Part shown: in pieces, positions 11,598 through 36,370 of the stretch
How positions within the stretch are numbered: the first letter of the stretch is position 1
Layout of the letters: each line of letters starts with the position of its first letter
Assembly: GCA_960531495.1 (NCBI GenBank)
Contig: OY482860.1
Location: forward strand, 11,762,799 to 11,826,798
Reading direction: 5' to 3'
Source: Zeus faber
Taxonomy: Eukaryota; Chordata; Actinopteri; Zeiformes; Zeidae
Length of the DNA stretch: 64,000 bases
Notes under the pieces: model-generated
Told to the model about the DNA's origin: nothing
What the model saw: the letters and a program-made list of their open reading frames with translations, nothing else
Database searches by the model: none
Program-made: the position numbers and the translations under genes

Positions 11598-11635
<38 letters not shown>

Positions 11636-12182: not shown

Positions 12183-12239
12183 GTCGAGTCACTTTTTCTT
12201 TCTTTTTTGTTTCTTTTTCTCCTTTCCATAATCAACTCA

Positions 12240-12480: not shown

Positions 12481-12536
12481 ACAACCTCCAAACCCAACTG
12501 TAACTCTAATCTCAGCCTTATCGCCAAATGGTCAAG

Positions 12537-12622: not shown

Positions 12623-13034
12623 TCAATCACTTCACAATATTTTGAACCTGCAACATTTGATCAAAATAAATGTTATTATGATGTTTGTTTTTTTTTTGTT
12701 CTTAATGCCTTCACTTTCTTGTATGGGGGAATGGGGTTGGGAGTAAATGTAAAAATCAATCCTTATAATTTATCGTAACTGATTCTCCCTGCTTACAGAA
12801 TGAAAAGATGACGCACAGCTTGAGGAGCTAGTTCTTTCAGACAACTTGACGGCGCCACGTGCTGCCGCACCCTTGTGGGCTGGCCTATTCAAGTAGCCAG
12901 TCCCTCCGGCTCTACCTGCTTTGCTGCTTACTTGGCTACCTGGCTCCCTCCACCTCCCTGCATCCGCCTGTTGGGCTCTACTCTTCTATCCAATGAAGGG
13001 ATTCAAGCTCATCACTCTCACCTTATTTCTAGCT

Positions 13035-13640: not shown

Positions 13641-14458
13641 TTGCTGTACAACTCACCGGGAGTGATGTGCGGTCGAGCCCCGACGCCAAACTCACATGAT
13701 ACATAATAAATAAAGATATATTTAAAGTAAACGTAAGTGTTGTCAGTCATGAATAAATGTATTTACAAAACAAGATACTTTTTTAAAATAATGTCCTTTC
13801 CAATATTTTTCCCTTTCCTCTCTGCCTTGACAAATAAGCAAATCCTCCCATCCTTCTACGTCCATGTCTGAGTCCATCGCTCTCTCTCTCTTTACCCATA
13901 TTTCCATATCTCCTAATTTATTTCCCCGGCTCCGTCTGCACTGTGGCCATGGCAGAACCTCCCAATATGGCCGCCCACTGGCAGCTGCACTGTAAACTTA
14001 TCACGGGCGAAGAAAGGGGATCTGCCCGGCTCCCTTCCTGTCAGCAGAGATGTCAAGGTGAACTTGGGGGACTCCTTAAATAACTACAACCCCCCACCCC
14101 GCCAAATCCCCCTCCACACACACACACCCACCCCCCGCCCCCACCCATCTCACCCCTTCACTGGGTCGCAAAAGATTAGAGGAAGCCTCTTGTTCAGAAG
14201 AGCATCTCGGGGATGTCGTCTTTAATTAGAATTTAGAAGTACTTGTTAAAAAAATATAAATAAAGCCCTTAATAAACTGGCTGTAACAGAACAATCACTG
14301 ACCGTTTGCTATGCGCAGAACAGGCAAAAAAAAAGTCTAATTTAAGAATATGTTGATCTTTCGGATGAAACTTTATCCCCATTCCTCCTGGACTGCTAAC
14401 GCAGTTATTACACTGTTATTACTTATGACTTCTGCTACTTATTAGGACTTCTGTTATA

Positions 14459-14837
14459 CAGTGGTACCTCGACTTGCGACTGTAATTCGTTCTATAAGAA
14501 CGGTCGTATGTTAAAACAAGAATGAAGCAATTTTTCCCATATAAATTATGAAATCATGAAGGGCAAAATAAACAAAATACACAGCACAAACGCAGAAAAT
14601 ACGAAAAAAATATCCATAAGCCACGAAATACGTGCACACACGATGTAGGTCGCCCGCTGACTGACTGCTGACTGACTGCTGACTGACTGCTGACTGGCTG
14701 CCGACGCGCCAACTGCAAATTTCCACGGTCGTATCTTGGAGCAGTCGGTCGCAAGTCGCTACAAATTTTTGCGATTATCGCTACTCGTATCTTGGATTAG
14801 TCGTAAGTAGATGCAGTCGTAAGTCGAGGTACCATCA
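14459..14837. mobile_element. MITE with CAGTGGTACCTCGAC-type ends
   Basis: The left end reads CAGTGGTACCTCGACTTGCGAC and the right end GTCGTAAGTCGAGGTACCATC, clear inverted repeats, with a TA just outside the left end. Inner segments repeat the motif CGTATCTTGGA. A short tandem of CTGACTGCTGA units sits at 14657-14700. The ends and TA target suggest a Tc1/mariner/pogo-superfamily non-autonomous element. No coding capacity. Confidence 0.8.
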
Positions 14838-16703
14838 TGAGCAGTGACGGGCCCCAGTTCAAACTTATGACGGGTCCTAGTGCATGCTAGTTACTAATTA
14901 TGAAGCACACATACACAAACACACACACACACACAGCACACACACAAATCATTAGACACATACGGTATTTTTTCTAATTCAAACCCGTACTCAAACAAAA
15001 GCCTCTAATAAATGCCAGGGGCGAGGTCGACACAAACAAATAAACGTCTGACTCAAATACAGACCGGTTGAAAAACCAAGGATGGATAAACTCGAGGTGT
15101 GCTATATAATGTGCATGGCAGTTAAGGCGAGACTGTAACATTTTTTTTTTTTTTACCTTATCTTGCACTATGTTTTGCGTATTTTTTGTGTTCGGTACGA
15201 AACCGTGGGAAAAGTACGTCATGCTTTACAATTCCTGTCGCGATAAATTAATAAACTTGCCGGTCAAAATGTCCGGTAATAATGCTCATACAAAACGCAG
15301 CCGCTTCACCCCCCCCGGTCCACTGGAGGGCTGAGAAATGACGAACAAAGAAATCTCTTAAAATTCAAAGAGAGAGTTTTGGTTTTGTTCTATATCCAAC
15401 ACACACTCACGTTACGATTATTTAGGACTAACGTTCTATCTATCTTGCTATCTGTACAGTATATGACAAAAATAGCAAAGAAAATAAGAAATTATTAATT
15501 AATTGAATCTCCTTTTAATAGTTTATTTATTGTTTTTATAGTTTAAGTAGAATAAGAATATAATTTTGTTTAAATACAAATGAAAACCTTGACGGAGATG
15601 GGCTTGCCTTGCCGATGGCATATGTACAGTCACTGATGGCGTCATATTTATTTAGTTCTTCTTTGAACACAGGCGTATTTCCGAGGCAGCAATCCGACTC
15701 TCGCGCAAGGGCCCGTTCTCTGCCCAACACATTTTGGAGGGCCCGCTTCAAGGGCCCCTCCCCACCGACCCCAGTGCAACGGCTCTGCCTGCGCTGTCTA
15801 TTTTTACTCCCCTGATCATGATTATTATGACCCTTTTTAATACTGTTATTATGGACTGCCATTATCATTGCCGTGACAAATGACCGTACAATTTTATACC
15901 CGTGCAACTCTTGACTTGTTTGTAATTTATTAAGTAACAATTGCGCTGCAAAGTTTCCTTCCTTTTGTTGGAATTGGCCGCTAATTCAGGGGTGTCGTTT
16001 TCGCGCATTCTTTTTTTTCCCTGACGAGGAATTCCTTCGCTTTCCTGCGGCTTTGTTCAACTAGAGAGCTGAGTTACAGTGGTTTTTACGATGGAACATT
16101 TGGGAAAGCCCAATTTGGCAACAACGGGGCGACAGCGACGCGCTAATGAAGACTTTTTTCCAAATGAAACAACGTCAAGAGGGTGAAACCTGCGATAATT
16201 AAGATTCATAATGTTCATGAAGGTGATCCATTGCTCCATCCCTCAACAAGTTCAAGTGTTTCAGATCGTTCACTGCTGTCCAGGGAAACAGATTGTACAT
16301 TTAAATTAGTTACAGACATGTACTTCACTTTCCCTCCTGCTGAAATAGGAAGGTAATTCCCAATTATATGATCACAATAAATTGCCTTATGTAACCTGAT
16401 GAAGACCAACATGTCGGTTTTAAACTATTGGAGAGTAAAACAATGTGAGTGGTTTCTCTCTTCCTTCAGTGCTTCCTTCTCCAGCACCAAGTAAAGCAGT
16501 GAAAGCAGGGCTGTTGTTTTTTTCAGGCGTATGCAACGTAAGAAGAAGAGCAATCAACCAGAGCAAAGTCAACTAAATATAATATGTGCACTCCAGTCCA
16601 CTATAATCCAGTCCTCGTGTTTTCCTTTATACAGCAGTTTAGGCTGTCACAAAACCAATTGTTGTGACTCTCCAGGTCACCAATTAGCCAATATTAATAT
16701 AAT
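14838..16703. other. No gene seen
   Basis: AT-rich, with an AC tract at 14906-14946. The 134-codon minus frame at 15536-15940 shows no domain or splice context. Confidence 0.45.
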
Positions 16704-16789
16704 AGCCAATATTATAGAATTATATGCAGGATACAACACATATTTCTATAAGTAATAAGTACTGTGTTTACTCCCAGGTAGGGCTCAAG
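16704..16789 (-). repeat. 86-bp perfect repeat, arm 2 (inverted)
   Basis: Inverted partner of 12537-12622. It ends 66 bp before the truncated end of Tc1 relic copy 1 and may be part of the same insertion history. Confidence 0.9.
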
Positions 16790-16854
16790 TTTTCAGCAAA
16801 TTATCATATTAGAGCATGTGACGTCACATTCCATAGTCTCTCCATCAAAACTAC

Positions 16855-17672
16855 ATACACCCCCTCGTGTCGCCAAAACAGCTCTGACCCGTTGAGGCAT
16901 TTGCTCCATGCGAGGCATGGACTCTGAAGGTGTCCTGTAGTATCTGGCACCAAGACGTTAGCAGCAGATCCTTTAAGTCCAGGAAGTTGTGAGATGGGGC
17001 CTCCATGAATCGGGCTTGTTGTTACAGCACATCCCACAGATGCTGGATCGGACCCCAACCCCCGACCATCCACATGATGGAGAAGAAAACGTGTCCAGCT
17101 CTGATGCTTTCAGATCACGTCCATTGTAAGTGCTTTCAGCGGTGGACAGGGGTCAGCATGGACACTCTGACCGGTCTGCAGCTACGCAGCCCCATACACA
17201 GCAAGCTGTGATGCACTGTGTGTGTGTGACACCTTTCTATCATAGCAGCATTAACTTTATCGGCAATTTGTGCTGCAGTAGCTCTTCTGTGGTATCGGAC
17301 AGGACAGGCTAGACTTCGCTCCCCACCCGCATCAATGAGCCTTGGGCGCTCATGACCCTGTTGCCGGTTCAGCAGTTGTCCTTCCTTGGACCACTTTAGG
17401 TAGGTACTTACCACTGCACCCCACCCCATAAGACCTGCTGGTTTGGAGATGCTTTGACCCAGTCGTCTAGCCATCGCAATTTGCTACTTGTCAAAGTCGC
17501 TCAGATCCTTACGCTTGACCATTTTTCCTGCTTCCAACAGATCAACTTCAAGAACTGACTGTTCACTTGCTGCCTAATATATCCCACCCCTTGACAGGTG
17601 CTACTGGAACCAGATGAGCAATGCTATACACTTCAGCTGTCTGTGGTATTAATGTTGTGGCTGATTAGTGTA
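16855..17672 (-). mobile_element. Decayed Tc1-like transposon, copy 1
   Basis: Its right end carries the fish Tc1-type terminus (GTGGCTGATTAGTGTA, read inward on the minus strand). The minus-strand frame at 17136-17474 encodes MARRLGQSISKPAG, SKEGQLLNRQQGHERPRLIDAGGERSL and RRATAAQIADKVNAA, the DNA-binding half of a Tc1 transposase. A later piece (16860-17110) resembles the C-terminal end, with AGHVFFSIMWM. The catalytic middle is missing and stops interrupt the frame, so it cannot encode an active enzyme. No left TIR was found; it is truncated near 16855. Confidence 0.85.
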
Positions 17673-17762
17673 CATTCTAAGAGACACCGCAGATAATGTG
17701 ATTTTCATCTCCAAATAGTGATATCAAAATACAATTATTGGCGCATCAGTGGTTTCTCTTAG

Positions 17763-17953
17763 AACTCGTTCTCTCTCTCTCCCCTCTCTTTCCCTCTCCC
17801 CCTTTGTGTCCCTCCCACCTCTACCTCTCTCCCCCCTCTCTCTATCCCTATCTCTCTCCCCTCCCCTCCCCCCCTCTCTGCCTTTCACTCTCCTCCCTCT
17901 ATATCCCTCCCTTCCTCTCTTCCCCCTCTCTCTCTCGCCCCCCCCCCCCCCCC
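17763..17953 (+). repeat. Polypyrimidine (CT-rich) tract
   Basis: About 190 bp almost free of purines, ending in a 16-C run (17938-17953). It makes long but meaningless frames on both strands (S/L/P-rich plus, G/R/E-rich minus) and could form triplex DNA. Confidence 0.85.
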
Positions 17954-18326
17954 TACAGTGTTTTTCCTTATACACATTGCTCACCCCATCATCGCGCCCC
18001 ACTTCTCCCCTCTCTCCCCCTGCCCTCCCTTTGATCGTGGGTGTGGGCTGTGCCGGTCTGTCAGCAGTGTGGCTGCTCAGAGCGCCCGGAGTTCCAGTCG
18101 TCCGTGTGGTCGCTGGGACCCTGAAAGTCACTCCGGCCCATGGAGCCCCGGGGATCAGGGCTCTGCCCACCGGTCCAATAAGAAGAAAAGTCCACACAAA
18201 GTCTATGTTCCACGGTCCAAAGTCACAACTGTTCCATAGGACGGTTGAGGAACAGGAATGAAAGGGGATTTGGATTACACACTTCAAGTTTTTCTCCGGT
18301 CATGATATTGTTGCCATTTGCAAATG

Positions 18327-18863
18327 TTGGTGGTGGAAGACCTTTTACTTCTGTTAAAAGTACATACTAATAATAATATCCTGACACAAAATGACACATG
18401 TAAAAGTACCACATTGACATTTCTACTTAGAAATGCCAAAGTATAGAAGTACTTGGTCTTAAATGTCTTGAAAGTATTAAAAGTGAGTATATAACATTAC
18501 ATAAAGTGCTACTCCACTGTAGCACTGTAGAACAGTTTTCATGCAGATCACGATTACAATGTACAAAAACAATATCAATATATAATAACAAATACATAAA
18601 TAAAACATATTAAAAATAAGATTTGGACCTAATGAATCAAGCCCAAGTCAGCATGTTGATAGATCCAGTCCCTGGTTTTAATATATACTGTGCTAACAAC
18701 AAGAAAAAAAAAAGAAAAAAGAAAAAAGTATAGACATTGTTCTTTGAAATGTAGTGGAATAAAAGTCTCTGGAAAATTAATATATATCTATAATAGGATA
18801 CTTGAAATACGTACTTAAGTACAGTGACAAAGCACTTGCACTCTAATCATTTCCACCACTAGG
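18327..18863. repeat. GTGGTGGAA-ended teleost interspersed repeat, full-length copy
   Basis: TGGTGGTGGAAGAC at the left and TCATTTCCACCACTAG at the right are inverted. The interior is rich in AAGTACTT/TAAGTACA motifs typical of a very common fish repeat. Non-coding. Confidence 0.65.
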
Positions 18864-19662
18864 TTTTAAATTTGCAATTCAACTCGAACCCTAACTTGTT
18901 TGACATGATGATGAAAAGTCTTAATTATTCCAGGGTGTAAATTAGGAACAACTGTTCTAACCCCAGTCATGTGTCACATTCTCAGTATATTATGTGTGTG
19001 TGTGAGAGCGTGTTGGTCCTGATTTGAGGCGATAGCGAGTAAGTGATGTCTGGGAGGGCTATGCCAACCATGCCAGGCTGTTGGACTTGTGTGACCGGCA
19101 GGGTTTTGGGACGGGGGCGGGGTGGAGGGTGTGAGGGGGGGTGGGGGCGGGGGTGAGGTCTTAGATTACACGCCTGCTTTCTGCTTTCTGGACGTGACTT
19201 CCCCTGGGACCCCAGCCAGGTAAACTGTCAAAGCCTACTTCCTCCCGAGCAGCGGGCCACTTTTAAAGAAAGGGTCTGGATCACACAACCCCCGATGCCC
19301 CCCCAACCACCCACCCACCCCACCCCACCATCCACCACCACCGCCCCGTTTTGACCTCACCCCCTCCACGATGGCTTCATCATATCTCCCCCTTTTTTTA
19401 ATCCCAGGACTTAGCTCCTCTCTGGGTGTCTTGTGACAAGAGAGTAGCATAGTGCATAGTTACTCACAGAGACAATGGGAAAATCATATTTATTTATTAT
19501 TTATTATTATTATATATATATAAAATTATGTATTTATTTACTTTAAGTTGTATAATATCTATATATAAAATATACTTTTAAAATGTATATTTGAATTTGT
19601 TTTACCCTATACATTTTTTTTCTCTTTTTTTGACTTCCACTGTTCTGTCAACTTACGTTGCT

Positions 19663-19694
19663 CCATTCAGGTTAAAAAGGTATAACCTGAATGG
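19663..19694. repeat. 12-bp perfect hairpin before a LINE-like tail
   Basis: CCATTCAGGTTA and its exact inverse flank an 8-base loop. AATAAAGTTTTATCTAATCTAATC follows, looking like a retroposon 3' end. Confidence 0.7.
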
Positions 19695-20097
19695 CAGAAT
19701 AAAGTTTTATCTAATCTAATCTTCTATTCATCCCCGTGACAGAGGAGGCTGTGCTCCCCTTACAGAGTCCAGTGTTCGCTGCATGTTACAGCTCTTATCT
19801 TCTCCCTGCGCTAATAAACTATGCCTTGTGATCTGTTTTTCCGTATTTTGTTATTGATGATCCATTTTGCAGCCGCTTCACAAGAGCTCCATGTGTGACA
19901 TCACACCATGTAAATATCTCTAACAGGCAGGGTTGGAGAAAAAAAACCTACGAAAAAAAACAAAAAACAACTGCTCGTACGTATTTTTAACCTCATAAAT
20001 CAGCAGCTTAACATATACACTCAGCATCCTCCGGGCCAAAAGCACGCGTGCGCGTTAGGAACGGCCTCAACAGCGTCCGAACACGCATGTGCACCCG

Positions 20098-20129
20098 CAC
20101 ACACACACAAGCACACACACACATGCACG

Positions 20130-20165
<36 letters not shown>
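20098..20165 (+). repeat. (AC)n microsatellite, imperfect
   Basis: AC repeat with GC and AT variants. Another AC tract lies at 20575-20613, and a shorter one at 14906-14946. Confidence 0.93.
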
Positions 20166-20167
<2 letters not shown>

Positions 20168-20573
20168 ACATAAGATCATCCCTCGCTCCGGATTGTTGGA
20201 CATGAACTTCCTCACTCTCTGCCGGACACGGGATTCCTTCTCAAGCTCGATTTCCAAAGTCTCCCCGATTCCTACTTCATAACTTCACTTTTAAAGTTAA
20301 TCTTGTTTTAAGATTTAAGCGGGTTATCACAACAAACAACTATTCCGTTTCCTGGTGGGTCGCGACTAATGCATTACCTATGGGACACACCGGGAAATAG
20401 TCATGTCCCTGTGACATTGTGTCTCTTTAAAAGAAGTTGTCCAACACCAAAGTAACAGGAATGGAAATGCATTACATGTTGAGACAACAAATACTGTTTG
20501 GATGTTACAGGTCGTGTTAGGTAGGAACCGCATTCATGGAATACCCAGACTGATGATATGGGACAACCCTCCC

Positions 20574-20615
<42 letters not shown>

Positions 20616-21715
20616 CACATATCTGCCCCATTAATTCCCATCCACTTATAAGGGCGTGTGCTGTATGTTGCACCTATTACTGGCCTTTTTTGGGACATTG
20701 TTAACAATGCTTATTAAGAAACAATTTGAAACAACTTTAAATATTTAAACAGGCCTAATTGGCAGCTTTATGGGAAGTTGTTGGGGTGTTCCAAAAATCT
20801 TTAGCCCTGGTTTTAATGTCAAACTAAGATTTATACCAAATGAGGGCTTGGGGAGGGAAATATGGGAATAAATTATGATATATGTCATCAAGAGACATTA
20901 TAATACATAATGGTACTCAAAGGTGCTTGCGTGCAACAGTTAAGAAATACATCAGAGTCATCATCTTTGGTTTTTTTCAATCCTTACCCTTGTTTTATTG
21001 CAGGTTGCAAAGTCAAGTTGATGACCTGGATCAAAATCTATTTACCTTTAATTTATTTAATTTGTATAAAACCATTACAGCGTCAGCGAGAGATAGAAGC
21101 CAAGGGAAACATCTGACCGTTCCATTTCATCCAATCAGGGGGAAAGACACGGGACGGGGTAATCACATTAACGGGCGATGAAAGGCCACGCAAATATATT
21201 TCAAAGAAAAGGAACAAAAAAAAAGTATAAAGGCTTTATGGCTTTTCCAGCGCGTTGCAACATCTCTAGATGCGGAAAACCATCCATCAAGTCTCTATCG
21301 GGATGACACCGTCCAGATGTGTGTTCTGTGAAGCTGAGGCAGCCTCCTCCACTGTGTGTAAACAGGAAACCCATCTGTAAATCAATGGGCGACATCATCT
21401 GTTCCTTTTGTCACATTTCATTTGTTTTCTTTCTCCTTTCTTTTTTTATTTAGGGGGTTTTCTTTCCCGCTCTCTCTGTTTCAGCGTCATCATCACTAAT
21501 CATCATCACCAATCATCATCACTAATCATCATGGTCGGTCGCCCTGGTTTTAAAATAAACAACAGCACGGCCGCCATAGAAGCAGAGTGAGAAATGACTG
21601 GCTGTAGCCAGGTGTATAGCCACCCTACACATTGATATTTATATCTCAAAATTCCCTTGCGGCCAAGGAGGAGGTGAATTGTGACTGACAAAGACACAAG
21701 TTTCAGACTGGACAT

Positions 21716-22457
21716 TTAAAGTGGAACTATTATGCTCCTTTTCCCCAAGCTAATAGGTCTCTGAGGTCCCCAAAACAAAAAATACCACTCAGATTATGCA
21801 TTCAAGGCCTTCTAACAGGCATGCAATCAGGGTGGATTGCATGCCTGTTAGAAGGCCTTGAAAAGGTCTGAAAAGGGGCTGTTTTTATGGGAGGAGCCAC
21901 CCTCCCAAGGCCCCCAGTTCTGTGAGCCAATGGGGTTTGAGCGTGGCTTTCGGGTTCTGTCCACCAAAATCTGTTTCTGAACAGATTTGAGGTGAGAAAT
22001 AAGCAATCCAGTCGCTGAATCTGCACTCATATGTGATCTACAAGGCTTCATTTAAAAGTTCGTTCCTACTTTGGTTGCCCTGCTCCAGGCTTGCGGGAGA
22101 CACTCACACACACGTTTTTTGTTTAATGTAAACGTCTGAAAATTAAATAAAATAAATGCATCGACAATAAAAATAAACACAGTTTTTATTGGTTTTGCTT
22201 GGAGAAACGCACAGCGGATCGGATGGAGCAGATAAACATATAAAGAAATCCATGATGAGCTGACGTCAGCTCGTGCAGAGTAGAATAAACTTTGCGTTCA
22301 GAGCGGTCGGAAGCCTCAGCATTTTGTTCACAGCGATTACTTTGTCATTAGTTCACCTTGTTATTTCACACTTTGACAACGTTGAATATGAACATCCCAC
22401 ATTTTAACATTATTTATATGACAGAGAATAAGGAAAAGTATAGTAGTTCCCCTTTAA
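21716..22457. mobile_element. Non-autonomous DNA transposon with long palindrome inside
   Basis: The left end (TTAAAGTGGAACTATTATG) and the inverted right end (TTAAAGGGGAACTACTATA) match with few changes, and TTAA occurs at both borders. Length is about 742 bp with no transposase. Near the left end are 28-bp perfectly inverted arms (21801-21828 and 21835-21862) around a 6-base loop. TTAA borders would fit piggyBac-type targeting, but the family is not proven. Confidence 0.75.
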
Positions 22458-22654
22458 GGAACATGAGCATGAATTTGGCAAAAGTTATACACTGTACACC
22501 AGTATTTGAAGTTATTTTTAATTTAAAGATTCTCAGATCCTGTACAGTATATACATCTATGTATTCACACCCAAAGCCGTCAGCAACATTGCATTTCATA
22601 TATTCAATTTGTTTTTACAAATTTACCTTTATTTGAATATTTGGCCATTTTTTT

Positions 22655-22765
22655 TTTGCTTTTTCAGACTGCTCAGCTCTTTAAGCTGTCTGTACAGCGA
22701 TGCACCAATGGCAAATTCCTCGAATTTGAAATGTGCTCCTCCCAATAAACACCTTCCGATTCTGG
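22655..22765 (+). mobile_element. LINE-like 3' tail
   Basis: TTTTTCAGACTGCTCAGCTC, GATGCACCAATGG, AAATTCCTCG and CCCAATAAACACC parallel 60095-60200 in order. This layout is typical of fish L2-like LINE ends. Non-coding fragment. Confidence 0.5.
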
Positions 22766-23207
22766 TTCGGACCATAATTAAAAAGGATCCTCACTCCAAT
22801 CGTAAAATGGTAACAATTTGGCAAACATTCCGTCAGCCTCGGACCCAACAGCTGATGCACGGTCGCCAGCTTGGCGACCGCTTCTAAAAGGGAAGCGTCG
22901 GGTCCCGGTGAAAACCCTCTCTGCGGATGTTCTCGGCGAGGTTCAAATTCCCCATTTTCTTCCCTCCAGCTGTTACAAGGGAGAAGACAACCGCCCCCCC
23001 AGCCCCCTCCCCTTTACCGGCTGTAAACTCCACCCGCACCATCTGGACCGGTGGAAGGCTGCGGAGTTGAAAGGCTCCCACACCTGCACCTCCTCTGAAA
23101 CTCCTCCACCCAGACCCTCGCTCCAAAACGGCCCCAAAACCCCTAACATCCTATTGACAAGACCAATTAGCACTAATGTGTGGTGGCTGTACCGTGGCAC
23201 CTCCCAT

Positions 23208-23211
23208 CGCG

Positions 23212-23292
<81 letters not shown>
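23208..23292 (+). repeat. Compound (CG)n(AC)n microsatellite
   Basis: Thirteen bases of CG alternation run directly into 72 bases of AC. Alternating CG next to AC is a classic Z-DNA-forming layout. Confidence 0.96.
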
Positions 23293-23295
<3 letters not shown>

Positions 23296-24605
23296 AATGA
23301 CTTAATAACTAACACCTGGTGGCTGTAGTAAAGAAACAGCTGTCTTCCATGGCCGAGATCAATTCTTCACTGAAATGTCCATAGTCAACTAGTGATGTCA
23401 TTACCTGACAAATGTACGAGTAATGACGAGTATTGACAAGTATTCACTATTCCATAGGGGTAACGTCTTCTTCTTCTTCTTCCTTCTCTTCGGGCTGCTC
23501 CCGTTAGGGGTCGCCACAGCGGATCAACTGCCTCCAACACCTTCTGTTCTGCGCATCTTCCTCCCTTACACCGACCCCCTGCATGTCCTCCCTCACCACA
23601 TCCATAAACCTGAGTGTTTGACTCAAAAACTTGGGATACCAGAAAGACCATTCTTAACTTGAAAAGTTAGGTTCACTTACTTCTCAACCCTGGGGCCTTT
23701 TTAAAATATTTCATAGCACAACATCGCCGAGCGCTTCACGAGTGAGAAACTGACCACCCTGCTGCAGCTCCTCACTGTGATTAAAAGCAGCCCAATCGGG
23801 GGAAACGTTTAAGCCTTGAAAAAAAAACCCTGTTAAATCTGCTTTTTTGGAAAACGGTAGTCGTCACATGTGTATATTGTCTTGAACAGCAGTGGTTGAA
23901 CTTTTTTTTTTGCAATTGCCACAGTACATCCAAAGCGTAACGTTGGCCACAGTAGGTTGGTCGCCAGTAGGTATGCAGAGCAACTTCCCGTTTCTAGTCT
24001 CTATTTTAGCATGGATGTAGCCAAAAGACTCCCCTAAAAAATTCGCTGAAAAACCTGCTGAACCTAAAATGCACAAACCATTTTTAACATACGACCAGTG
24101 TTTGACTGTATTGTGAACTTGCCATTTTTTAAAAAGGAGATTGAACATATTTCCTTAAGGCTTAAACATTTGCCCCATTGACTGCATTGAAGCACGGTGA
24201 AGAGCTGCAGCAGAGTGGTCCGTTCCTCAATAGTAAAGCGTTCAGGTTTAGGAGGCTGGGCTATGGACAGTTAAAAATGATGGGAACCAACGTTTTAATA
24301 AGAAAAATACTAAACCTGTCCTTTAAAAATTGGCATTTGTCATCCGATTTCCAGCACAAGCCAGTCCCATTGGAAATGTTTGACGAACAATTTCATACAA
24401 TAAACATTTTATCTAGTTTCCTTCATTCAACAATGTCAGACGAGATCAGCTGAAAATACTCTGGATTTCTTCATCCCCTTAGTAATCTGACCCCCCCCAG
24501 GAAAAAAAAAAAACTGGAGTCGGGCCATGTCCAGCGGGCACTTGCTGCTGCCATAACCAGAACCTAAATAGCACCGCCGGACTCTGAGATCAGTCCCCGG
24601 CGGCA

Positions 24606-24606
<1 letters not shown>

Positions 24607-24658
<52 letters not shown>
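24607..24658 (+). repeat. (GT)n microsatellite
   Basis: About 52 bp of GT. Confidence 0.95.
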
Positions 24659-24660
<2 letters not shown>

Positions 24661-25098
24661 GGTAATCAGCTCGTCCAGGAATAAATACCTCAGTGATACC
24701 ACTTTGTCACGCCAGCTTGCATCATGACCCGACGTGACACAAAACCCAAGCTCCAAATATCAATACGCCCTCCACTTGTCATGGTGGCTCTTGGTCCACC
24801 AGTAAAATCCCCTTAAAGCAAACCATACCTCCATGTGCCTCCACTGAAAGGGAATTCATAACGACCGCTCTCCTCACTTCGTATAATAACTCGGGACAAT
24901 CTCTGCCGCCGAAAAATAAGCCCAGATTTCGGCCGAAGCTTCATCGAGTCGCCCCGAGTTTTCCCCCGAAACACGACGGACTGAACCGTATTATTCACAC
25001 AGGAACTCAATGAAACACATAGATTAAGGTTAAAGTAGGAGTAGTAGATATTTTTCCCCAAAAACCATCCAAAACACCCAACACACAGCAGTCCAGCC

Positions 25099-25149
25099 AC
25101 ACACACGCACGCACACATGTACGCACGCAGGCACGCACGCACACACACG

Positions 25150-25195
<46 letters not shown>
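25099..25195 (+). repeat. (AC)n / (GCAC)n microsatellite
   Basis: Mixed GCAC units leading to pure AC, about 190 bp beyond the exon 2 donor inside inferred intron 2. Confidence 0.94.
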
Positions 25196-25196
<1 letters not shown>

Positions 25197-25387
25197 CTGA
25201 GTGCAGCAAAATGCAGTGATTTAAGGATCGAAGCAGCTCAGGTTATTAGTGGAGTTTCGCCAACTGACTTGAGCTCAGGAGGTGGGGAGGTGGGAAAGGG
25301 CCGGTTCGGTGGCATTGTTGGGGACAGGGAGGTGAGGTTGGGGGTCGGGTGGGGAGGTTAATGGTTTCAATGGATAACGGGGCTTAC

Positions 25388-25457
25388 CTGGCGGACACAA
25401 GCAGTTGGAGGAAGCTTCCCGAATCTTTCGCGTCTTAGAAAGCCATTCTGAAAGTTT
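25388..25457 (-). CDS. Transmembrane (MACIT) collagen alpha chain, exon 2, residues 96-118 plus one base
   Basis: This 70-bp exon is too short to appear among 60-codon frames. Seen: acceptor TTTCCGTAG at its 5' side, donor CCAG/GTAAGC at its 3' side. It starts in phase 0, exactly as exon 1 ends, and encodes KLSEWLSKTRKIREASSNCLCPP plus the first base of a Gly codon. RKIR (105-108) before EA is a minimal RxxR furin-type site, and C114/C116 form the CxCPPG motif. Known of the family: XXIII and XXV carry KIRxAREAPSECxCP just before the first Gly-X-Y run, and proprotein convertases shed the ectodomain there. The REA-three residues-C spacing matches XXIII/XXV; XIII has a longer gap. Identity rests on matching phase, consensus splice sites and this motif together. 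Intron 1 is 8,422 bp. The next exon must begin with the last two bases of Gly119. Confidence 0.87.
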
Positions 25458-25470
25458 CTACGGAAAGAGC

Positions 25471-25488
25471 AGAGAGAGAGAGAGAGAG
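25471..25488 (+). repeat. (AG)n microsatellite acting as exon 2 polypyrimidine tract
   Basis: Nine AG units. On the minus strand these are (CT)n at about -14 to -31 from the exon 2 acceptor, the position of the polypyrimidine tract. Confidence 0.85.
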
Positions 25489-25527
25489 AAAGAAGGGAGG
25501 GTGTTAAATGTTATTATTAATAAAAAC

Positions 25528-25562
<35 letters not shown>
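25528..25562 (+). repeat. (AAT)n microsatellite
   Basis: About eleven AAT units. Larger AAT/ATT tracts lie at 48667-48745 and 55199-55286. Confidence 0.93.
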
Positions 25563-25564
<2 letters not shown>

Positions 25565-26471
25565 CCACAATCTTCTTGTATTTCCCCTTTTCCCAATGCT
25601 AAGCAAATCATAAAGGAAACGTAAAGGAAGCAGTTAAAAACACAGAAAAGAGTTTAAAAACATAGATGAATTCTAATGCATTCTAAGAAGAATACTAAGA
25701 TGAATTCGAGCATACTTTCAACAAACTATTTTTGTTCAAGAGTCATGATCTGACGCCTGTTGCCAAAAAAGCATTACTCGAAAAGTGCCTCAGCGCTGGC
25801 TAGAGTTACAGTCATAGACGGTATGTTTAGAGCAAAGACCTTTCTCTGCGGAATGATGGTGAATCCATTGAAAAGAAGCCCTGAACTGTATTTTAACTAA
25901 ATACGTAAATGAAAACTCGCAGGTTGTAGGGGAAACAGACACCAGATGTTGATATCAACTTTATGAAGACAATAAAAAATGAATGCACGTCCTACTGCCT
26001 GCAGTCCCCTGAGTACTTCATGGCGTACGTAATGGAATAAGCTGCTACGGTGCACCTCAAAAACGACCGGAATGGCTTTCACAAACCTCAGGAAAAAACT
26101 GGGGAGTATTTTAAATGTCAAACAATACGAGAGCCTCATGCCGAATCAATCGCAGAAGTGCGCTCTCGGATATTCTTCTCCCTCTTGTAATGTTATTATT
26201 CAGGAGTCCCAGGAATGTATTGGGTTGATACTGGCAGAGCGCGCTGCCGACTGGAGAAGTCTTCAAGTGAGCTGTAAAGTTGCTCGCTTTGGCCTTTTTT
26301 TCGGAGCCAAAGTGAAGCTAAAACCTGAGGCAAAGACAGCAGCTGAGGGGGGCGTGGAAAGCAGCGTTACCTCCACTAGGCAGAGGTGGAAAGTCCGTGT
26401 ACAGAAGGTCAAATTCCACTCGGGATTTTGAGTCAACCGCGCTTATAGCTCCATTAGTTGGACCTCTAGGT

Positions 26472-26999
26472 CAGTGTTTCTCAAATGGGGGTAATCATAC
26501 CCCTCTGGGTACTCCGAAAATTTAAAAAAAAAGTTACATAATATTGGTTATATATAATGCACATACATCACCATGTGTTCATTTTATTTATTTTTTCTCC
26601 CAATGCCAGTGAAGGGGGTATTCAGCTGAAAAAGGACCTTTTTCTTTTTTTCAGCGCCTGTCCTGCCTCGTCGGGACAATGTCACTAAATCAGCTGATCA
26701 GTGGTTGGGGCTAAAACATGGAAACAGGATTTTTCCCTTTCTGAACCTGGAATCTTCCACCTGTTTGACTAGGGAACTAGAGGAACACCGTGGAGACTCG
26801 TCTGAACTGAAAACAGCCAAGACAAGCCCAGTCATAAAGTCACAAAGAAAATTGTCTGTAGGCCTATAAATAAAATCAGTACAAAGAAAATAAAAAATAA
26901 GCAATCATTAAAGAAAATCCTATTCATGAAGCCTTGGCCATTTTTAGGTTTTCTCAACGTAAAATGCATGCCTTTTATCAAATTATAGGTTGAGAACAC
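26472..26999. mobile_element. hAT-like non-autonomous element
   Basis: The left end CAGTGTTTCTCAAATG and the right end GGTTGAGAACACC are inverted relatives of the CAGTG-TTCTCAA termini typical of hAT elements. About 528 bp of AT-rich sequence lies between, with no transposase frame. No clear 8-bp target duplication was found. Lies in intron 1. Confidence 0.5.
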
Positions 27000-27544
27000 C
27001 AAAAAAAGAGTGTTAGGATTTAAAGCCTTCATTAATTAATCCAATGGCTTCAGCCTCTTTTTTTTTTCGTTTTTTGTTTTCATCTGATGACTACATTTTT
27101 CAGTGTATACATTCAGTCATTACAGTCTGAGCACACACTATTAAAAACATGCAGATGTCCAGTTAGTGATCCAGGTGTCTAGTTAAGTCAGCGCTGACAT
27201 CATATACAGTACATATGACACTACATCACTTATGATGCATAGGTCAGACTCTCGCACGGCAGCTGGGGTGGACTGCTCAATTCTTTTGGGAAACAGAGGG
27301 AGGCAGGGTGATACAAATGGAGGGCTGGATGTTTGAGGGGATGCATTCTCCGCCTCTCAGCCTCCCGACTTTAATGGTAACCTGATGCCCGAGTTTTTGA
27401 TCTGGGTTTAACATTCTATTTTGAAAGGATGACAGTGGCTCTGGCCATCGCGTAGTAGTCAGATTAGTGGTAAGACCTGGCGGTACTGGTCTGAGGGGGT
27501 GATGAACTGGGAGGTTTTTCAGACGAGTACTTCCTGAGTTCTTT

Positions 27545-28060
27545 ATCATGTCGATAGTGTGATACGAGACTAGATATCGTCTGGGATTCTGGTTTATTAT
27601 TGTGACGGTTAAATGTTGTCTAGAAAGAGCAGTTTTCTGAACAACATAGACTGTTCTAGCTGCTCTAACCAATGTCTTGACCTAATGGTTGGTCATCATA
27701 TCCACATTAATAATGATTGTTTCGCAAATATGTATTGTGTGGAAATACCTAATGAAAGCACAAATAGCCATCTCTAAAATATCGTTATCGAGGTATTCGT
27801 CAATTTTCATCATGTTAAATTTTTTTCAATATCACCATGCCCTAGTTGCCTGCAACATTCAGTTTTTTGGGTTTTTTTTGCATATGGCTGTTTTGCAAAT
27901 GGAAATTTGAAATTTGCGAATTTTGACCAATACCTTGATATTGATAATTTGACGATGTATTTTGGATATTAATACCAAGCAAGTAGAGGCATTGATTAGA
28001 ACAGCTAGAACAGTCAATGCAATTCAAAAAATGGCATCACTATCATAGTATAAGTTTATA
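27545..28060 (+). repeat. Dispersed repeat family R2, longest copy
   Basis: Contains both the 3080-type block (from 27571) and the 12240-type block (from 27955), so it links the two shorter copies into one family of at least 500 bp. AT-rich, non-coding, in intron 1. Family not named. Confidence 0.65.
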
Positions 28061-29891
28061 ACAGTGTTATAATGCATGTCTACCAAATGTACAAGAGCTA
28101 TCTAGCTGATATTGCACATTAGACAAAACACCCAACAGATGGAAATGCATCTAATTCCAATTTTATTTGTTGTCAATCCCTTGAAATTTGGTTGGAAACA
28201 ATGATTGTGGACGGTTTAACCAAAAGATTGTGATCTATTCAAAAAATTGGGCTCCACCCATGCTTATGTGAAATCAATATAATATACAGTATATACTGCA
28301 TTTATAGTTATTTATACTGTATACTATATTTAAACTGCTTTCAACAGTTTAGACATATGCAAAACTTCGATTGAATAAATGATTACACTGGGTCTAATCG
28401 TTTACTATTTGCTGCTGCTATTTGTGTGAATTCCGCAGCCGTCACCAACTGCTCTAACGAGTAGCAGAGCTCCCAGACACTTCTCCATGAGTGTGCTGTT
28501 TCTTTTTAGGCTGTCTGAAACCACGTGGAGTTTCAATAACACACCCAACACACACTTGATATTCTCTCCCTGCCATACACCCCATTGTACGGTAAACTAT
28601 GAACGCATATTCCTCACATATGTCAAGGTGCCCATCAATCTGTTTTTGTTGTTGCATACAATATTGTATGTGTGCATGTGTGTACAGTCTGCGTATGTGG
28701 GGCCCCCAGGCCATCAGCGAATATTGGGGGCCCCCAGCACCTTCCTTCAGCACCACATATACTTTACACTGTATTGGGTGACAGGTCATGGGGGAGGCGG
28801 TTGAGGAGGTGGGGGGGTGGGGGAGAGTCTGCTTTTTGGACTTTTCCGCACCTCGAAACGTGGCCTGCAGCTCCCACTGAGCTTCTGCAGAGAGTGTGCA
28901 CGACTGGCAGGTGACAAACCCAGTGAGACGGCCTAGTGGATGATTGGAAATGTTAAAAGTGGAGGGGGAGGGGGTGGCGGTTTAAGCTCAAATTCAAAGT
29001 TTAAAGCTTCAGGCTTCAGCTCAAGATTTGGTTTTAAAAAAGGAGAATATAATGTATGATACTGTAAAAAAAATTATAGAATGACATGTGAGATGTGTAG
29101 AGGATCAAAAGTGCGTACCAGCTGTAGATATAAAAGGCCGGGCCCACGCTCATATACAAAGCGCCGCATCCGAGTGGTTGACAAGGAGGGCAACCACAGG
29201 AAGATGGTTGGCCAATGGCCCAAATCTGGTTGCCGGAGCCATCTGGGCAACTGTAATTGTAATTGTCAAGCTGTGGAAGGTTGTTTTATTTGTAACTGAG
29301 CAGACTCAACCACTGTTACCACAAACAATGTCCCACAGTGACCTAGTGGAGTCTTCCCTTGAAGACCTGGTTTAAAGGGGGGCTTTGAGTGAAAAGTCTC
29401 AGTTTTGAGTGAAACCAACACAGACGTCTTTTAACAAAAGGCCACATCTGGGGTTGTGTGACATTAATAATGGCTATTTATACACACAGACCTAAACAAA
29501 GAGGCCGGCGTCGCCCAGGGCCAAAGTGGAGATGAAGAGAGGGGAGGTCCTCCTCGCTGGGCCCCAAACCACCCAGCTTAGATCTGCCGCCCTCTGTGTA
29601 CACTGACTTCTGGTGACTGACAGCAACTGACACAGGGCTTAGACAACCTTCATGGTATTGTACTGTAGGACTTACTTTAGGACTCTAAAATGTGCACATT
29701 AGCGTATATAATACATAAGTTGTGAATTTTTCACAACCCCAAGCATTTAAAACCCTCTTGCCTGTGTCTCCTTTGTATTCTAAATGTATTCTCTGATGTG
29801 TGTTCAATAATGAACAGTTGTAACTTCTATAATCGGCTATAAAGTCCTCAGAGGACTGGGGCGCCCCTCTCCATTAAGCACACAACTAAAA

Positions 29892-30148
29892 CAGTGATCC
29901 TCTAAGTGGGGTCCGGGGACCTCCCAGTGGGTTTTTTGAAAGGTTCCAAGGGGGTCCCAGCAATACTTAAACGTCACTGTTATTTTGTTGTTTCCTATTA
30001 TCTCTCTAAATATTATTACGTATTATTATTATATTTACCAATAAAACTCCTCAAATTGGGCTCCCACAGACACAAGATATATCAAATGGGGTCCACAGCC
30101 TTACATATAACATTGAGAGTACATATGAAGGTTGAGAAGCACAGCTTT
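29892..30148. mobile_element. Short hAT-like MITE
   Basis: The left end CAGTGATCCTCTAAGTGGGG and the right end GGTTGAGAAGCACAG are imperfect inverted repeats of hAT type. The body contains GGGGTCC-rich sequence seen in such elements (GTGGGGTCCGGGGACC, AATGGGGTCCACAG). About 257 bp, non-coding. Confidence 0.55.
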
Positions 30149-30169
30149 AGGAGATGCCCACGAGTGAAA

Positions 30170-30171
<2 letters not shown>

Positions 30172-30200
<29 letters not shown>

Positions 30201-30206
30201 CGTGCG
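30172..30206 (+). repeat. (GT)n microsatellite
   Basis: About 35 bp, ending in GCGTGCGTGCG variants, just after the hAT-like MITE. Confidence 0.92.
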
Positions 30207-30589
30207 TGTTTGGGGGTGATAAAAGTTTGGCCAAAGCAAACAAAGGAGGAGTAAACAAGAAAACAGGGGGACTGTGGACTGCAGTCCTAGTTGAAAAGTG
30301 TGTTAGTGTAGCTGTGGAAGTCGTCAATTAAAGGCCAAAATGTGAGGCAAATGTTAAAAGGCCAGAGTGAGATTTTATTGGAGTGGTTTGATTGGACGAC
30401 TTGTGTGCCAAAAGCATTTTCTGTTCTTCATTTCTATGCACAATTAAGGATTAAAACATAATTATCCTAAAACGGTTAAGCCCCATTCACCCCTAATGCT
30501 CCATTTGAAGTGAATGTGAAACACTGCTTGTTTAATTAGGGGTCCAGCGTGAAATGTGGTAACCTTATCGTTTTTGTTCAAATGATTAT

Positions 30590-33215
30590 TATTCTTCTGG
30601 CCATTCTCCGGCTAAAGGTGCCTGGCGCTCAGAAACCGTGTAAGCCACGGACACAAAACTAATATATTGTATTTGAGGCAGTCCAGACATGCTGTGGTCC
30701 AAGTTTGATCAACATTGCACCATCTCTGTTGGACGAGTCTCAGCATCAAGCACCTCATCGTGCATAACCCTTTATATACTATATACTCTCTATACACCAT
30801 ATATACTATATACACGGTATACATCTCATCTCATCACCCGTTCTCAGTCTCAGCCTAGTTCCTGCAGTCTGTCAGTATTCACTACACTAGTGTTCGCAAT
30901 GGCCATGCCCCCTTACCGTGAAATAACACGGGTCTGTGCTTATCGACCAATTTGCTTAACGACCTGGTCCTGGGAATGGGAATGGTTAAGTAAGGAGTAC
31001 CTGTGTACTGTATGTGCAGGGTATGACTCTGAAGGGGCTCTCACATAGGCGCGATGTGCGCTGCGCTTTAAACTTAATTGGTGTGTATTGGTTGCTCCGA
31101 GCAGGATCTGCACTGATGTGCGTGGAGGTCGGCAGCACCGCGCAAAATTTGTGTGTTTGCAAAAGGTGTGTGCTCTGGCCCACACAATCAAAAGTTAAGA
31201 AGGCACTCCAAGTTTTTATCGGGTCGAGACGAGTTCCTGCTGTGTCCCTTGGGAATTCGGAAAACTGGAATTTGTGTTGGTAGTATCCAGGTCTGTTAGC
31301 TAATGTCTGGCGCTCAGAAACCGTCGAACTACCAGAAACCATTTGTATTCGGGGCTGTCCAGACATGCTGTGGGCCAAGTTGGATCCATATCGCACCATC
31401 TGTAGGCGTAGTAAGTCAAAAACTGTTTTACCGGAGCCAACGTACCAGAACTGAGCGAGTGACGAGTGAAGTTGGTGAAGCGGGGCGCCTTGTGAAATCA
31501 TCATCCCAATTTGGTATATCTGTGGAGGGCTCTGGCTTTGAAGGGACAGTGCATGCTTATCCCAGTATAGATTATTAAAACACATATTAATATAATTTTA
31601 CATTTACCTGGATCTCTGGTGAAATTAAAATCTAAAATAAGCGGTGAAGCTCTAAAATGTTTGCAAGCGTTTGAAGTGAAAATGTACTAACCCCTGGTTA
31701 GTATATCTGTCAGAGTTGTTAGTAAAAACTTGTTTTTCCAGAAGTAGCCGAGCAGATGGACCAAAAGTGTTGGAGCAGAGCGCTTTGTGACATTATCATC
31801 GGATATGGTATATACGTTCAGGTTTTGGCTCTTGAATGTTCAGAATGCAAACTGCCAATACTTACAGTAAGAAGATGAATGTTCAGAACCACCAGTCGCA
31901 GTCTGGCTGAATACAGACTCTGTGACGTCATATATCAAATATATATATAATTGTTCTTTTGCATTTTAACTGTGCTAAAACATTGGCCTGAGAATTTACA
32001 GAAATTTACAGAGATATATATTTCTACAGATACCTAAGTCTATATTTAATTTCATTCCAGCGCACATTTGTATTAGTCCATAGATATTAAGCCAAATTCC
32101 ACACTATTAGTAGTCTACTATTAATGTTATACTTAATCGTCAAAGCCAGATGTGTCGCCATTATAACATAATGTAAGGGTGTATTCTATAACTGACAATT
32201 AATTTGGCTTGTCTTTTTAATGTCTTTTTTTAACACGGAAAAAGCAAATTTGTTTCATTTCACAAAAACTCAGAAAACTAATTTGTGTACTGTAATTGGT
32301 ACAATAGCTGCGACTAACCTGGACTCTATGCATAGATTTTTGTTTGAAGTCTTGTTTGTTCTGGATACTATCATATGTCACTGTAATGTGATAATGTCCG
32401 GTGCTCAGGAACTGTCAAACTCACTGGCATGAATGAATAAGATTAGTATTCGGGGCTGTCCACATATGCTATGGGCCAAGTTTGAGCCACATCGTATTAT
32501 ATCTGTCGGCGTAATTAGTGAAAAAACATTTTACTGAAGCCGACGTACCGGAACCAGACGAGCGAAGGTACCGGGGTGAAGCGGGGTGCGTTGTGACATT
32601 ATCATACACCGATATTATGTGCAGGTGGTGGCTCTGGGGGGTATTTCACATAGGGCCACGGTTGCTTGAACCGTCCCCAATTGCTCCACTCACTGATTGG
32701 CATTGGTGTTAAGAGTTTACCTCCAACTTTGAAAACAGAAATAGTATTTACGTTGCATTTAATGAAAACTTGTTAAAAAATGTGTGTAATTGGTAAAATT
32801 GCTGCAACTATACTAGGCCCTGTGAATTGCTGCCTGCAGCTATATTATTATCATCTGGCCATTCTTTGGCTTTAGGTCCCTGGTGCTCAGAAACCATGAA
32901 ACCCATGGACACAAAACTAATAAATTGTATTCAGGGCAGTCCAGACATGGTGTGGTCCAAGTTTGATGAACATAGGACCATCTCTGTAGAACTTGTTAGG
33001 GGGGGAAAAGTGACATTTTTCTAAATGACCGGAAGGAAGCGGAAATAGTGGAGTAGAGCGCATTGTGGCATTAGCATCCATTTGGTATACACTGTATGTG
33101 CAGGGCAGCGCAGCATATAAACAACCATGTTTTATTGAACTGTCTTTAAAGGATCCCATTATTGCCATTGCCATTGGACCCCATGCATTGGTGCCTGCAG
33201 CTACATTAATGATTT
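30590..33215 (+). repeat. Cluster of diverged copies of a repeat of several hundred bp
   Basis: Recognisable copies start near 30597, 31301, 31690 (partial), 32395 and 32857. Shared landmarks in order: CTGGCCATTCT, CTGG(C/T)GCTCAGAAACC, GGG(C/G)(T/A)GTCCAGACATG, GTGG(T/G)CCAAGTT, CACCATCTGT, CCGACGTACCGGAAC, GAGCGCATTGTG, TTTGGTATA and GTGCAGG. CCTGCAGCTATATTA (about 32831) directly precedes a new CTGGCCATTCT start, and CCTGCAGCTACATTA (about 33193) ends the last copy, suggesting a head-to-tail arrangement. No frame is conserved between copies. Family unknown. Confidence 0.75.
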
Positions 33216-33879
33216 TTTTTTTTTTTCTCCCCTTGATATCCTCGATCTTTTGGTCTCTTCTGCACATTTATTTTCATTCTGCTTTTTTCCTCTATTTCAC
33301 CTCATTGTTCTAATTAAGAATGTTTTATGTGCAGTAAAAAAACGAAATTAAGCAGCTAAAGCCAACTTTATTATCAAAAAGATGATAATAAATTATAATA
33401 AAATTTCACCCTGTATGGGGTGTCAAAAAAGTATATTGTCCCATAATTAAAGTATATTGTTAGTATATAAAGTATTTTTCTCCACATTTATCATTGTTGT
33501 GATCATTTGAAGTGCATTTTTTGTTACTTCTTACTTACTTTAACACTAGCAATATAAAGTACAGCTTCATTATACTAGTCATTATTATGGTGTAAGTGTA
33601 GTGTATACTGAAAAAGTATATTGAAACGTGAACTAAGCTTAAGCTGTACTTTAGTATACTTGACAAAAGAAACCAAAGAAAACTGAAAGACATTTAAGCG
33701 CAACAGGTACAACTTAGGTGCTTTTAATTGAACACCACGACTGAAAGTATACTTTCGGATGAATAAACATAATAAACAAACTCCCTTTTCCCCCCACTCG
33801 GGACTAACATTACAGTTCCACTCATACTGCAGGGTAACTGTCAAGCACAGCGAGTAAACGTAAACGTCCCCTCTCTCAC

Positions 33880-34164
33880 CTCCTCCAGAATGCTCTCTAC
33901 CCGGGCAGAGATCAGCGGCTCCACCTGCTTCTCGGACACCCAGGGGGAGAGCGGCGCGTCCCGCTCGCTCTCCAGACTCGCCACCTGGGACTGGAGCTGC
34001 GAGGTCCGCAAGAAAAGCGCGACGCAAACTCCCAGGGACAAGACACTCAGCGTCACGCAGACACACACGGCGGACAACTCTTTCGAGCTCGTCCAGGGGT
34101 GCTTCTTCTTGGTGACCGCAGTCCTGAGCACCTCGTTGGCTTCACACTGCCGGTCCCCTTCCAT
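33880..34164 (-). CDS. Transmembrane (MACIT) collagen alpha chain, exon 1, residues 1-95
   Basis: Seen: an ATG at 34164-34162 in good context (GAGATGG, G at -3 and +4) opens 95 codons ending at a donor (GGAG/GTGAGA) in phase 0. Residues 1-30 are polar with KKK at 19-21, 31-52 are one hydrophobic segment, and 53-68 (RTSQLQSQVASLESER) form a short coiled coil followed by a linker ending in ILEE. Known of the family: collagens XIII, XXIII and XXV are type II membrane proteins with a short cytosolic tail, one membrane span, then a coiled coil that starts trimerisation of the ectodomain. Inferred: this is such a chain at the plasma membrane, acting in cell-matrix adhesion. LQxxVAxLExER is shared across the group; RT..LQ..V recalls XIII, while LExERD..EP recalls XXIII, so the paralogue stays open. 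The open frame continues upstream of the ATG without another ATG. The overlapping plus-strand frame is a shadow. Confidence 0.87.
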
Positions 34165-34720
34165 CTCTATTCCACCAGGGGAAAAAAATCCCAAAAGAGA
34201 AAATGGGTTAAAATGCACAAATCCTGACGTCCCACAAACTTTTTTTGGGGGTGGATGGGGGGGGGGTGGGGGGTGGGAGTGGGCTCGGGGGGGCTTTTTT
34301 GGGGGGTTGGGAAGGGGGGGGTCCTCTTCTCCTCCGCTCTCAGCTCAACAGCTCTCCCCGTCAGATCAGTCTCACACCGTGGACCATGAAGTCACTTGCA
34401 GAAGGATCTCTTGGTCTTCTGCTCCGCTCTCCGGAAGGGTTCATGTGATGGAGCTCCGCTCTCCAGACCCGTCCCGCTCCGGCTCTCCGGCTCTCTGGCT
34501 CTCTGGCTCTCCGCAGCGCGGTCCACCGCTCCTCAGCTGAAACCCGAGCACCCGCCCCACCGCCGCCCCCCGCCCCCCGCCGCGCGGCCCTGCAGCCCCT
34601 GCTCGCTCCTCCTCTGAGCCTGCCCCGGGTTAAACGCTGGGGCGGGATTCTCCGCTCCTCCTTTGATGCGCTACGCGCTGAGGGATATTTTTAGGTGATC
34701 CGCCGCCACCGTGCTGAGCG
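34165..34720 (-). promoter_or_regulatory. 5' UTR and GC-rich promoter of the collagen gene
   Basis: Upstream of the collagen start codon the sequence turns GC- and CpG-rich, most strongly at 34470-34690, with several GC-box-like CCGCCCC / GGGGCGGG motifs. No canonical TATA box lies at a clear start site. On the minus strand an A/T motif, CTAAAAATAT, sits at about 34685-34694, roughly 520 bp before the ATG. It differs by one base from the MEF2 consensus and could also serve as a weak TATA element. The part next to the ATG (34241-34321) is a long G-run tract on the plus strand. The transcription start cannot be placed from sequence; a dispersed CpG-type promoter is the natural inference. Confidence 0.6.
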
Positions 34721-36370
34721 AAGACCTTGCCCCCTCTGCACGGTTCCCCCGGCCCGGCGCGACGCAAGCCGTTTCAACGACCAGCAGTGACGTCACGATG
34801 GGCGATAGTCACAAGTCAAATTGCGTTCGAAATGCACAATTCACAATTCATGATTTGCAACCTGAATCGCGTTTGCTATTTGCAGTTTGCAATTGCAGTT
34901 CCTGAGCCGTGTCACCTTGGTTTGCGATTGAAAGGACAATTGACACGCACGTACACGCAGAGGTGTGACGACGGGCGGGCTCGGGTGGGCGTCGCCCAGC
35001 CAGAGGAATTGTCAATCGATCACCCAAGGAAAACTGAACGAAATCACTTACATCCTGTCAAGCCTCCAGTTTTCCCGAGTGTCTACCGTATTTTACCCTC
35101 CTTTCCCACTGTCATCCTATTTTTCCGAAAGATCCCATATTTTTAACCTTTCTAAAAAAAAAGGGGGGGGGCGTTGATCAGAGCCAGCTCCGCTCCGATC
35201 GTGAAGGTCAGTCCGCGAAAATAGATTTCTCCAAACAAAACAGATATTGTAGATGCTGAAGATGAAGGAAAGAAAGAAAGCCCCGTGCATAACAGGGACA
35301 CTGTCTCATTCACTCTCATAACCCCCCGCCCCTCCCCTTCTTAAAATTAAACTACGCCCTTGTTTACATACCCTATTTAGGAAAAGCAACGTTTTTGTTG
35401 CTGCCCACTTAAATAATCCAAATGCCCATCCAACTATGACATCCTAGTTACACCTCGGTGTACATGTCCTCTATTCTGGTGCATTCCATGTGGTTTTATA
35501 ACTTCTGACTGCCCACACCGAGCAAGAGAAAAGTTAAATTAGGTCATTTCCAGTGGTGGAAAGTAACTTTGTTACTATACCTTAGTACGTTTTTCAAGTA
35601 TCTGTACTTAAGTATATTTAGTTCCTGAGACAGTCCCGTTACTTTACTCATGTTTTTTAATCACGATTTAGATTTATATTTGTATATCCTTCCTTGTGAA
35701 TAACTATGACACCACCTTTGCTATTTTGTTGTAAATTGTTATCAGGATCTGCACTCATGTGGAGGGAAAAAAAAAGGTCCAGTCGGCCTTTTGTCGCTCA
35801 CTCTCAGTAAATCTAAGCTGTAACCAAAGTTAAATATGTTCGAATCGGAATTGTACGCTTGCAGGGAGGGTAGATATATAGGTACATTTATAGCAATTTA
35901 AGGATATTCACTCACACGTTGTAAACAGCCGGAGGCACAACACAAGAGAATATGACCGCTGCAGATAAGGACTTTGTTGGGGAAATCCTCGTGAAATCCA
36001 GGCGATAGGAGGTTAAAGTCCTGAATGTCACTGGCCGGTCAAGTCCCTGTGGCAGCAGAAGACAAACGGTCCGGCCCCTCTTTGATTAGCTCGCTGCCGT
36101 TTCACCCACAGCCAAATAACAGTGTTTAGGTCGGCCCCGGGGCCTTTGAAGTCCCTGGTCTCCCACCCCATTAAAACAGGCCGGACACAAGCTGGATTCT
36201 GTTTGTGGCCTGGTCTTTGTGTGGGCAGGTGCATTTGTTACTACTTCCATTGTGTACTGGAGGTATTTCAACCGTTCAGATTGATTTCCATGTTGCCAGG
36301 TGCAATAAAGTATTGTAGTATTGTAACCTCTACAAAGCAGAACCAACACCATCCTGTTGTGCAGGATTCT
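34721..36370. other. Upstream flank, no gene seen
   Basis: Falls from GC-rich to AT-rich. Contains CAATTCACAATTCATGATTT-type short repeats (34836-34900) and the AGTAAC repeat fragment at 35554-35660. Confidence 0.45.
35554..35660 (+). repeat. Fragment of the GTGGTGGAA/AGTAAC repeat
   Basis: Starts CAGTGGTGGAAAGTAAC and continues with GTATCTGTACTTAAGTA, the plus-strand start of the family seen at 18327-18863. Confidence 0.65.

Follow-up and report, generated by a model that had tools for sequence, protein, structure and literature searches.

The start of a probable collagen XIII gene in Zeus faber, with tandem exons near its C-terminal end

Collagen XIII helps to build nerve-muscle synapses in mammals. 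In humans, mutations of COL13A1 cause congenital myasthenic syndrome 19 (PMC4678414). Three features define the MACIT collagens in PMC4678570: a type II topology, collagen helices with interruptions, and a C-terminal motif with two cysteines. The same paper reports chain ends of the form W(H/N/Q)K and places human cleavage sites at RRRR107 (XIII), RTAR110 (XXIII) and RIAR112 (XXV). Here, a stretch of 64,000 nucleotides from the fish Zeus faber (the window; C16:11762799-11826798, C16 being contig OY482860.1) was found to carry two exons that very probably belong to the gene for the membrane-anchored collagen XIII alpha-1 chain (col13a1), the naming of the chain being partly assumed. With a further 120 kb below the window and 40 kb above it, the analysed region measured 224 kb, and the whole genome (803 Mb, 153 contigs) was searched for relatives. 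The gene is an ordinary member of an already known kind of collagen.

The features of this gene that fall within the window are the following.

33880..34164, minus strand: exon 1, coding part, with the cytosolic tail, the membrane span and the start of NC1 (open frame and splice signs; related exon 1 on C10)
25458..33879, minus strand: intron 1, GT-AG, 8422 bp (splice sites)
25388..25457, minus strand: exon 2 of 70 bp, entered in phase 0 and left in phase 1 (splice signs; related exon on C22)
1..25387, minus strand: beginning of intron 2 (with exon 3 outside the window, at C16:11752621-11752577)
34012..34068, minus strand: predicted membrane span, residues 33-51 (hydropathy maximum)
25419..25430, minus strand: RKIR at residues 105-108, predicted RXXR site of furin type (motif)
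25388..25403, minus strand: CLCPP plus the opening base of a split Gly codon, leading into COL1 (joined frame; same end on C22)
33700..35200, no strand assigned: CpG-rich 5' end, presumed promoter and 5' untranslated region (base composition)

The coding sequence opens with an ATG at 34164, and exon 1 (285 bp, 95 codons) is left in phase 0 at GAG/GTGAGA (33880). Exon 2 is preceded by CTCTTTCCGTAG and ends in CCGCCAG/GTAAGC; joined, both exons give 118 codons and one further base, which opens the split Gly codon, with zero stops. The original prediction had described this two-exon join, and its coordinates and phases proved exact when the ATG, the open frames and the GTGAGA and GTAAGC donors were re-read, which confirms the two segments as the predicted first two coding exons of one gene. 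Both exons are supported by homology as well as by splice signs, because the paralogous exons described below share their phases. Between 33700 and 35200, GC content is 0.53-0.64 and the CpG observed/expected ratio 0.65-1.1, against 0.43 and 0.58 for the whole window. No coding exon of the gene beyond exons 1 and 2 was found in the window; the minus-strand Gly-X-Y runs below 25388 are short or of low complexity, and a Gly-X-Y scan requiring splice sites listed no candidate between exon 2 and exon 3, which are separated by an intron 2 of about 35.6 kb. Searched with the 119-residue product, Pfam returned only a Gastrin match (13.6 bits, for a cut-off of 22.2) and the PDB sequences returned no match.

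The N-terminal plan proposed for this product comprised a cytosolic tail, a membrane span, a coiled coil, an RKIR site and CxCPPG, and it stands except for the coiled coil. The most hydrophobic stretch of 19 residues covers residues 33-51 (mean 2.62), and the residues N-terminal of it include basic ones, which fits a type II topology, called here by hydropathy only. The furin-type site of NC1, called by the RXXR motif only, is present as RKIR at a position that agrees with the human XIII, XXIII and XXV cleavage sites, and CLCPPG occupies residues 114-119. For the coiled coil in NC1 the support is weak: no distinct repeat emerged from a simple heptad scan, and prolines stand at residues 71, 74 and 83.

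Beyond the window, the gene continues on the same strand with exon 3 (C16:11752621-11752577), which counts 45 bp and runs from phase 1 to phase 1. Then comes an 8-bp micro-exon, GACCCCCA (C16:11749437-11749430), that passes from phase 1 to phase 0, coding the end of GPP and restoring phase 0. It ranked top of the nine listed by splice strength, and the pattern AG-GNCCNCCN-GT occurs at four sites on both strands of the 224 kb, only that of the micro-exon having a splice score of at least 20. Scans for a phase 1-to-0 exon after exon 3 that set a greater minimum length or called for at least two Gly found none. Human COL13A1 reportedly has an 8-bp exon too. After the micro-exon come phase-0 Gly-X-Y exons, their lengths being 27, 36, 45, 54 and more bases; in the 224 kb, Gly-X-Y runs number 33 on the strand of the gene versus 12 on the opposite one, and a chain search yielded 34 candidate phase-0 exons. 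Joined in a chain that opens with the ATG, 13 exons, the micro-exon among them, translate without a stop. The exon at C16:11736450-11736400 measures 51 bp and has a GTAAGT donor, and the joined first collagenous exons match Pfam Collagen (E 5.3e-20). At the C-terminal end of the gene lie exon a (C16:11697639-11697553, 87 bp, ending GLDAPCPL), exon b (C16:11696817-11696740, 78 bp, ending GLDAPCPV) and the last coding exon, GDDGLPLPGCWNK (C16:11695185-11695147), which is followed by a GTGAGT donor and lies about 68 kb past the low edge of the window.

All three published MACIT features are observed in this gene. The type II topology appears as one hydrophobic span near the N-terminus by hydropathy, the interrupted helices as candidate collagen exons separated by non-collagenous stretches, together with the Pfam Collagen match, and the two-cysteine C-terminal motif as GLDAPCPL plus GDDGLPLPGCWNK. 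The idea that a membrane collagen of XIII/XXIII/XXV type begins in the window is borne out by the same-strand, in-phase collagen exons and the family C-terminus that follow outside it.

Related pieces are found on two other contigs. Contig C10 carries an exon 1 of 288 bases, closed by a GT in phase 0 at the position that corresponds to the C16 donor (genome search E 0.003, 31% identity); its product, cut by hand at that GT before alignment, scores 72 against the exon 1 product of C16, where 1000 shuffles gave a mean of -6.9, a standard deviation of 9.7 and a maximum of 34. The same contig holds an exon 3 of 45 bp (C10:11005131-11005087) and a C-terminus of PCPV plus GQDGLPIPGCWHK. Contig C22 has a counterpart of exon 2 (C22:9439610-9439682, 73 bp, RSYEHFARIRIARQAESPECNCPP/G) that goes from phase 0 to phase 1 with the same C-x-C-P-P/G end, exon 3 again has 45 bp (C22:9523686-9523730), and the C-terminus is PCQL plus GPDGLPMPGCWQK. 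Exon 3 is thus of 45 bp and phase 1-1 in all three genes. The C10 gene yielded no exon 2, and the C22 gene no exon 1. Strand and order suggest that the pieces on C10 belong to a single gene and those on C22 to a second one. The genome therefore has three such places, ending in WNK (C16), WHK (C10) and WQK (C22), and the C16 gene is taken as a third, separate gene because the related genes sit on C10, with GCWHK, and on C22, with GCWQK.

These paralogues bear on the idea that the C16 gene codes for collagen XXV or XXIII and not XIII, which we regard as improbable. In its favour, the N-terminal plan is common to XIII, XXIII and XXV chains, exon 3 (GSPGSRGKRGRDGDP) resembles both its XXV-like (GPPGKRGRRGRNGEP) and XXIII-like (GPPGKRGRMGRRGDP) counterparts, and 23 of the 26 residues of C-terminal exon b are identical to those of the XXV-like exon b. 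However, XXV-like and XXIII-like genes with their own exons are present in the same genome: the COL25A1-like gene of C22, ending in GCWQK, has the related 73-bp exon and an a/b pair, and the COL23A1-like gene of C10, ending in GCWHK, has the related exon 1 and the 45-bp exon 3, with only exon a found. The C16 gene itself ends in WNK, the assignment of names to genes being partly assumed. The earlier reading as a XIII/XXIII/XXV membrane collagen is supported and can be narrowed to collagen XIII.

Several points weigh against the assignment to col13a1. The correspondence of WNK with XIII, WHK with XXIII and WQK with XXV is assumed, the published account giving only the set H/N/Q. The gene model is read from genomic sequence alone, part of the NC2/NC3 exons are not placed, and some candidates of the chain search, which favours collagen-like exons by design, are doubtful (e.g. 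GICGDYTHR). A macroH2A-like gene, with an exon of H2A-type look at C16:11866042 and a macro domain at C16:11868372 (57.8 bits, for a cut-off of 22), is linked to the C16 gene, which agrees with the linkage of COL13A1, but it stands here on the 5' side, whereas in humans it is on the 3' side of the gene. A search for the FAM241-type family, another expected neighbour, matched C13 only and not C16. In favour of XIII, some stretches resemble human collagen XIII, a likeness that serves as a lead and not as a test. As for the two segments being unrelated pieces or a decayed copy in frame by chance, this is extremely unlikely: phase agreement alone is expected by chance in about one case out of three and the junction of exons 1 and 2 is known solely at the genomic level, but the paralogues carry related exons with matching phases, the open chain runs through 13 exons and the family-type C-terminus is complete.

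Read as col13a1, the C16 gene was found in a single copy in this genome and differs from its human counterpart in several respects. It has RKIR where human XIII has RRRR at the cleavage site, it includes a 45-bp exon 3 that is not known from the canonical human chain, and the fish gene contains the two tandem C-terminal exons a and b. According to PMC12669723, the last base of exon 3 in human COL25A1 is c.367, with which the codon of Gly123 begins, and exon 2 here ends in the same split Gly. For that human exon, a legend in the same paper states that skipping removes 70 bp, and the r.300_367del notation spans 68 bases.

Exons a and b precede the common GCWNK exon, and both are open and of phase 0. 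The pair spans 11697639-11696740 on C16 and recurs in the same order in the XXV-like gene (C22:9589364-9589917). Between these two genes, residue identity reaches 21/29 for exon a and 23/26 for exon b. Codon positions 1, 2 and 3 match in 27, 25 and 12 of 29 codons for exon a and in 25, 24 and 14 of 26 codons for exon b; both exons look selected as protein because the changes fall mostly at third codon positions. Over their last 26 residues, a and b share 15/26 and 16/26 residues within a gene, and again 15/26 and 16/26 across genes. Because a and b are less alike than the same exon across genes, the pair seems to predate the separation of the two genes. It is tentatively proposed, at slightly less than even chances, that the a/b pair predates the XIII/XXV split and that choosing one exon would switch the C-terminal end of the helix; the alternative use of a and b is itself something we infer. 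In the XXIII-like gene, only exon a was found, with 17/29 identity to C16 and 19/29 to C22. In that gene, APCPV followed by GTACAG stands at C10:~10973736 (minus strand), after exon a and ahead of the last coding exon. This might be a relic of exon b, but the match is weak, its two scores being reached by 2/200 and 6/200 shuffles, and no relic is claimed.

No description of the a/b pair stood among the literature matches listed, and the pair may still be known. COL13A1 is cited among human cases of mutually exclusive exons, the exons being unspecified in the excerpt at hand (PMC5740500), and a splicing shift of COL13A1 is named, with no detail in the portion available (PMC9343278). Variants of human COL25A1 diverge in their final exons (PMC12669723), and PMC9741552 mentions neither COL13A1 nor COL25A1.

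Besides the gene, the window includes an open frame at 17136-17483 (minus strand) with a weak match to the Tc1/Tc3-type transposase family PF01498 (E 5.4e-5, 23.8 bits, for a cut-off of 31.5), likely a transposon relic in intron 2. Upstream of the gene, a degenerate 16-bp unit, GAACATAGGGTTGAGG, is repeated in a tandem array of about 47 copies (41020-41766). The window has 58 open frames of at least 110 amino acids, five of which were scanned against Pfam; the two scanned frames lying in 34700-64000 gave no match, and this part may be gene-poor. Searches of the window for tRNAs and for Rfam families that reach the gathering score came back empty.

In the proposed working of the protein, the spliced exons would yield a cytosolic tail, a type II membrane span and an NC1 stalk, with the triple helix starting at CLCPPG. 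By analogy with mammals, three chains would assemble with their N-termini inside the cell, a furin-type protease would shed the ectodomain at RKIR, the RXXR site, and the protein may act at the neuromuscular junction, as mammalian collagen XIII does. With paralogues of the same genome as the test, raw sequence was enough to place securely an exon of only 70 bp that is flanked by introns of 8 kb and 36 kb. The pair of exons a and b offers a testable handle on the best conserved and functionally unexplained part of the family.
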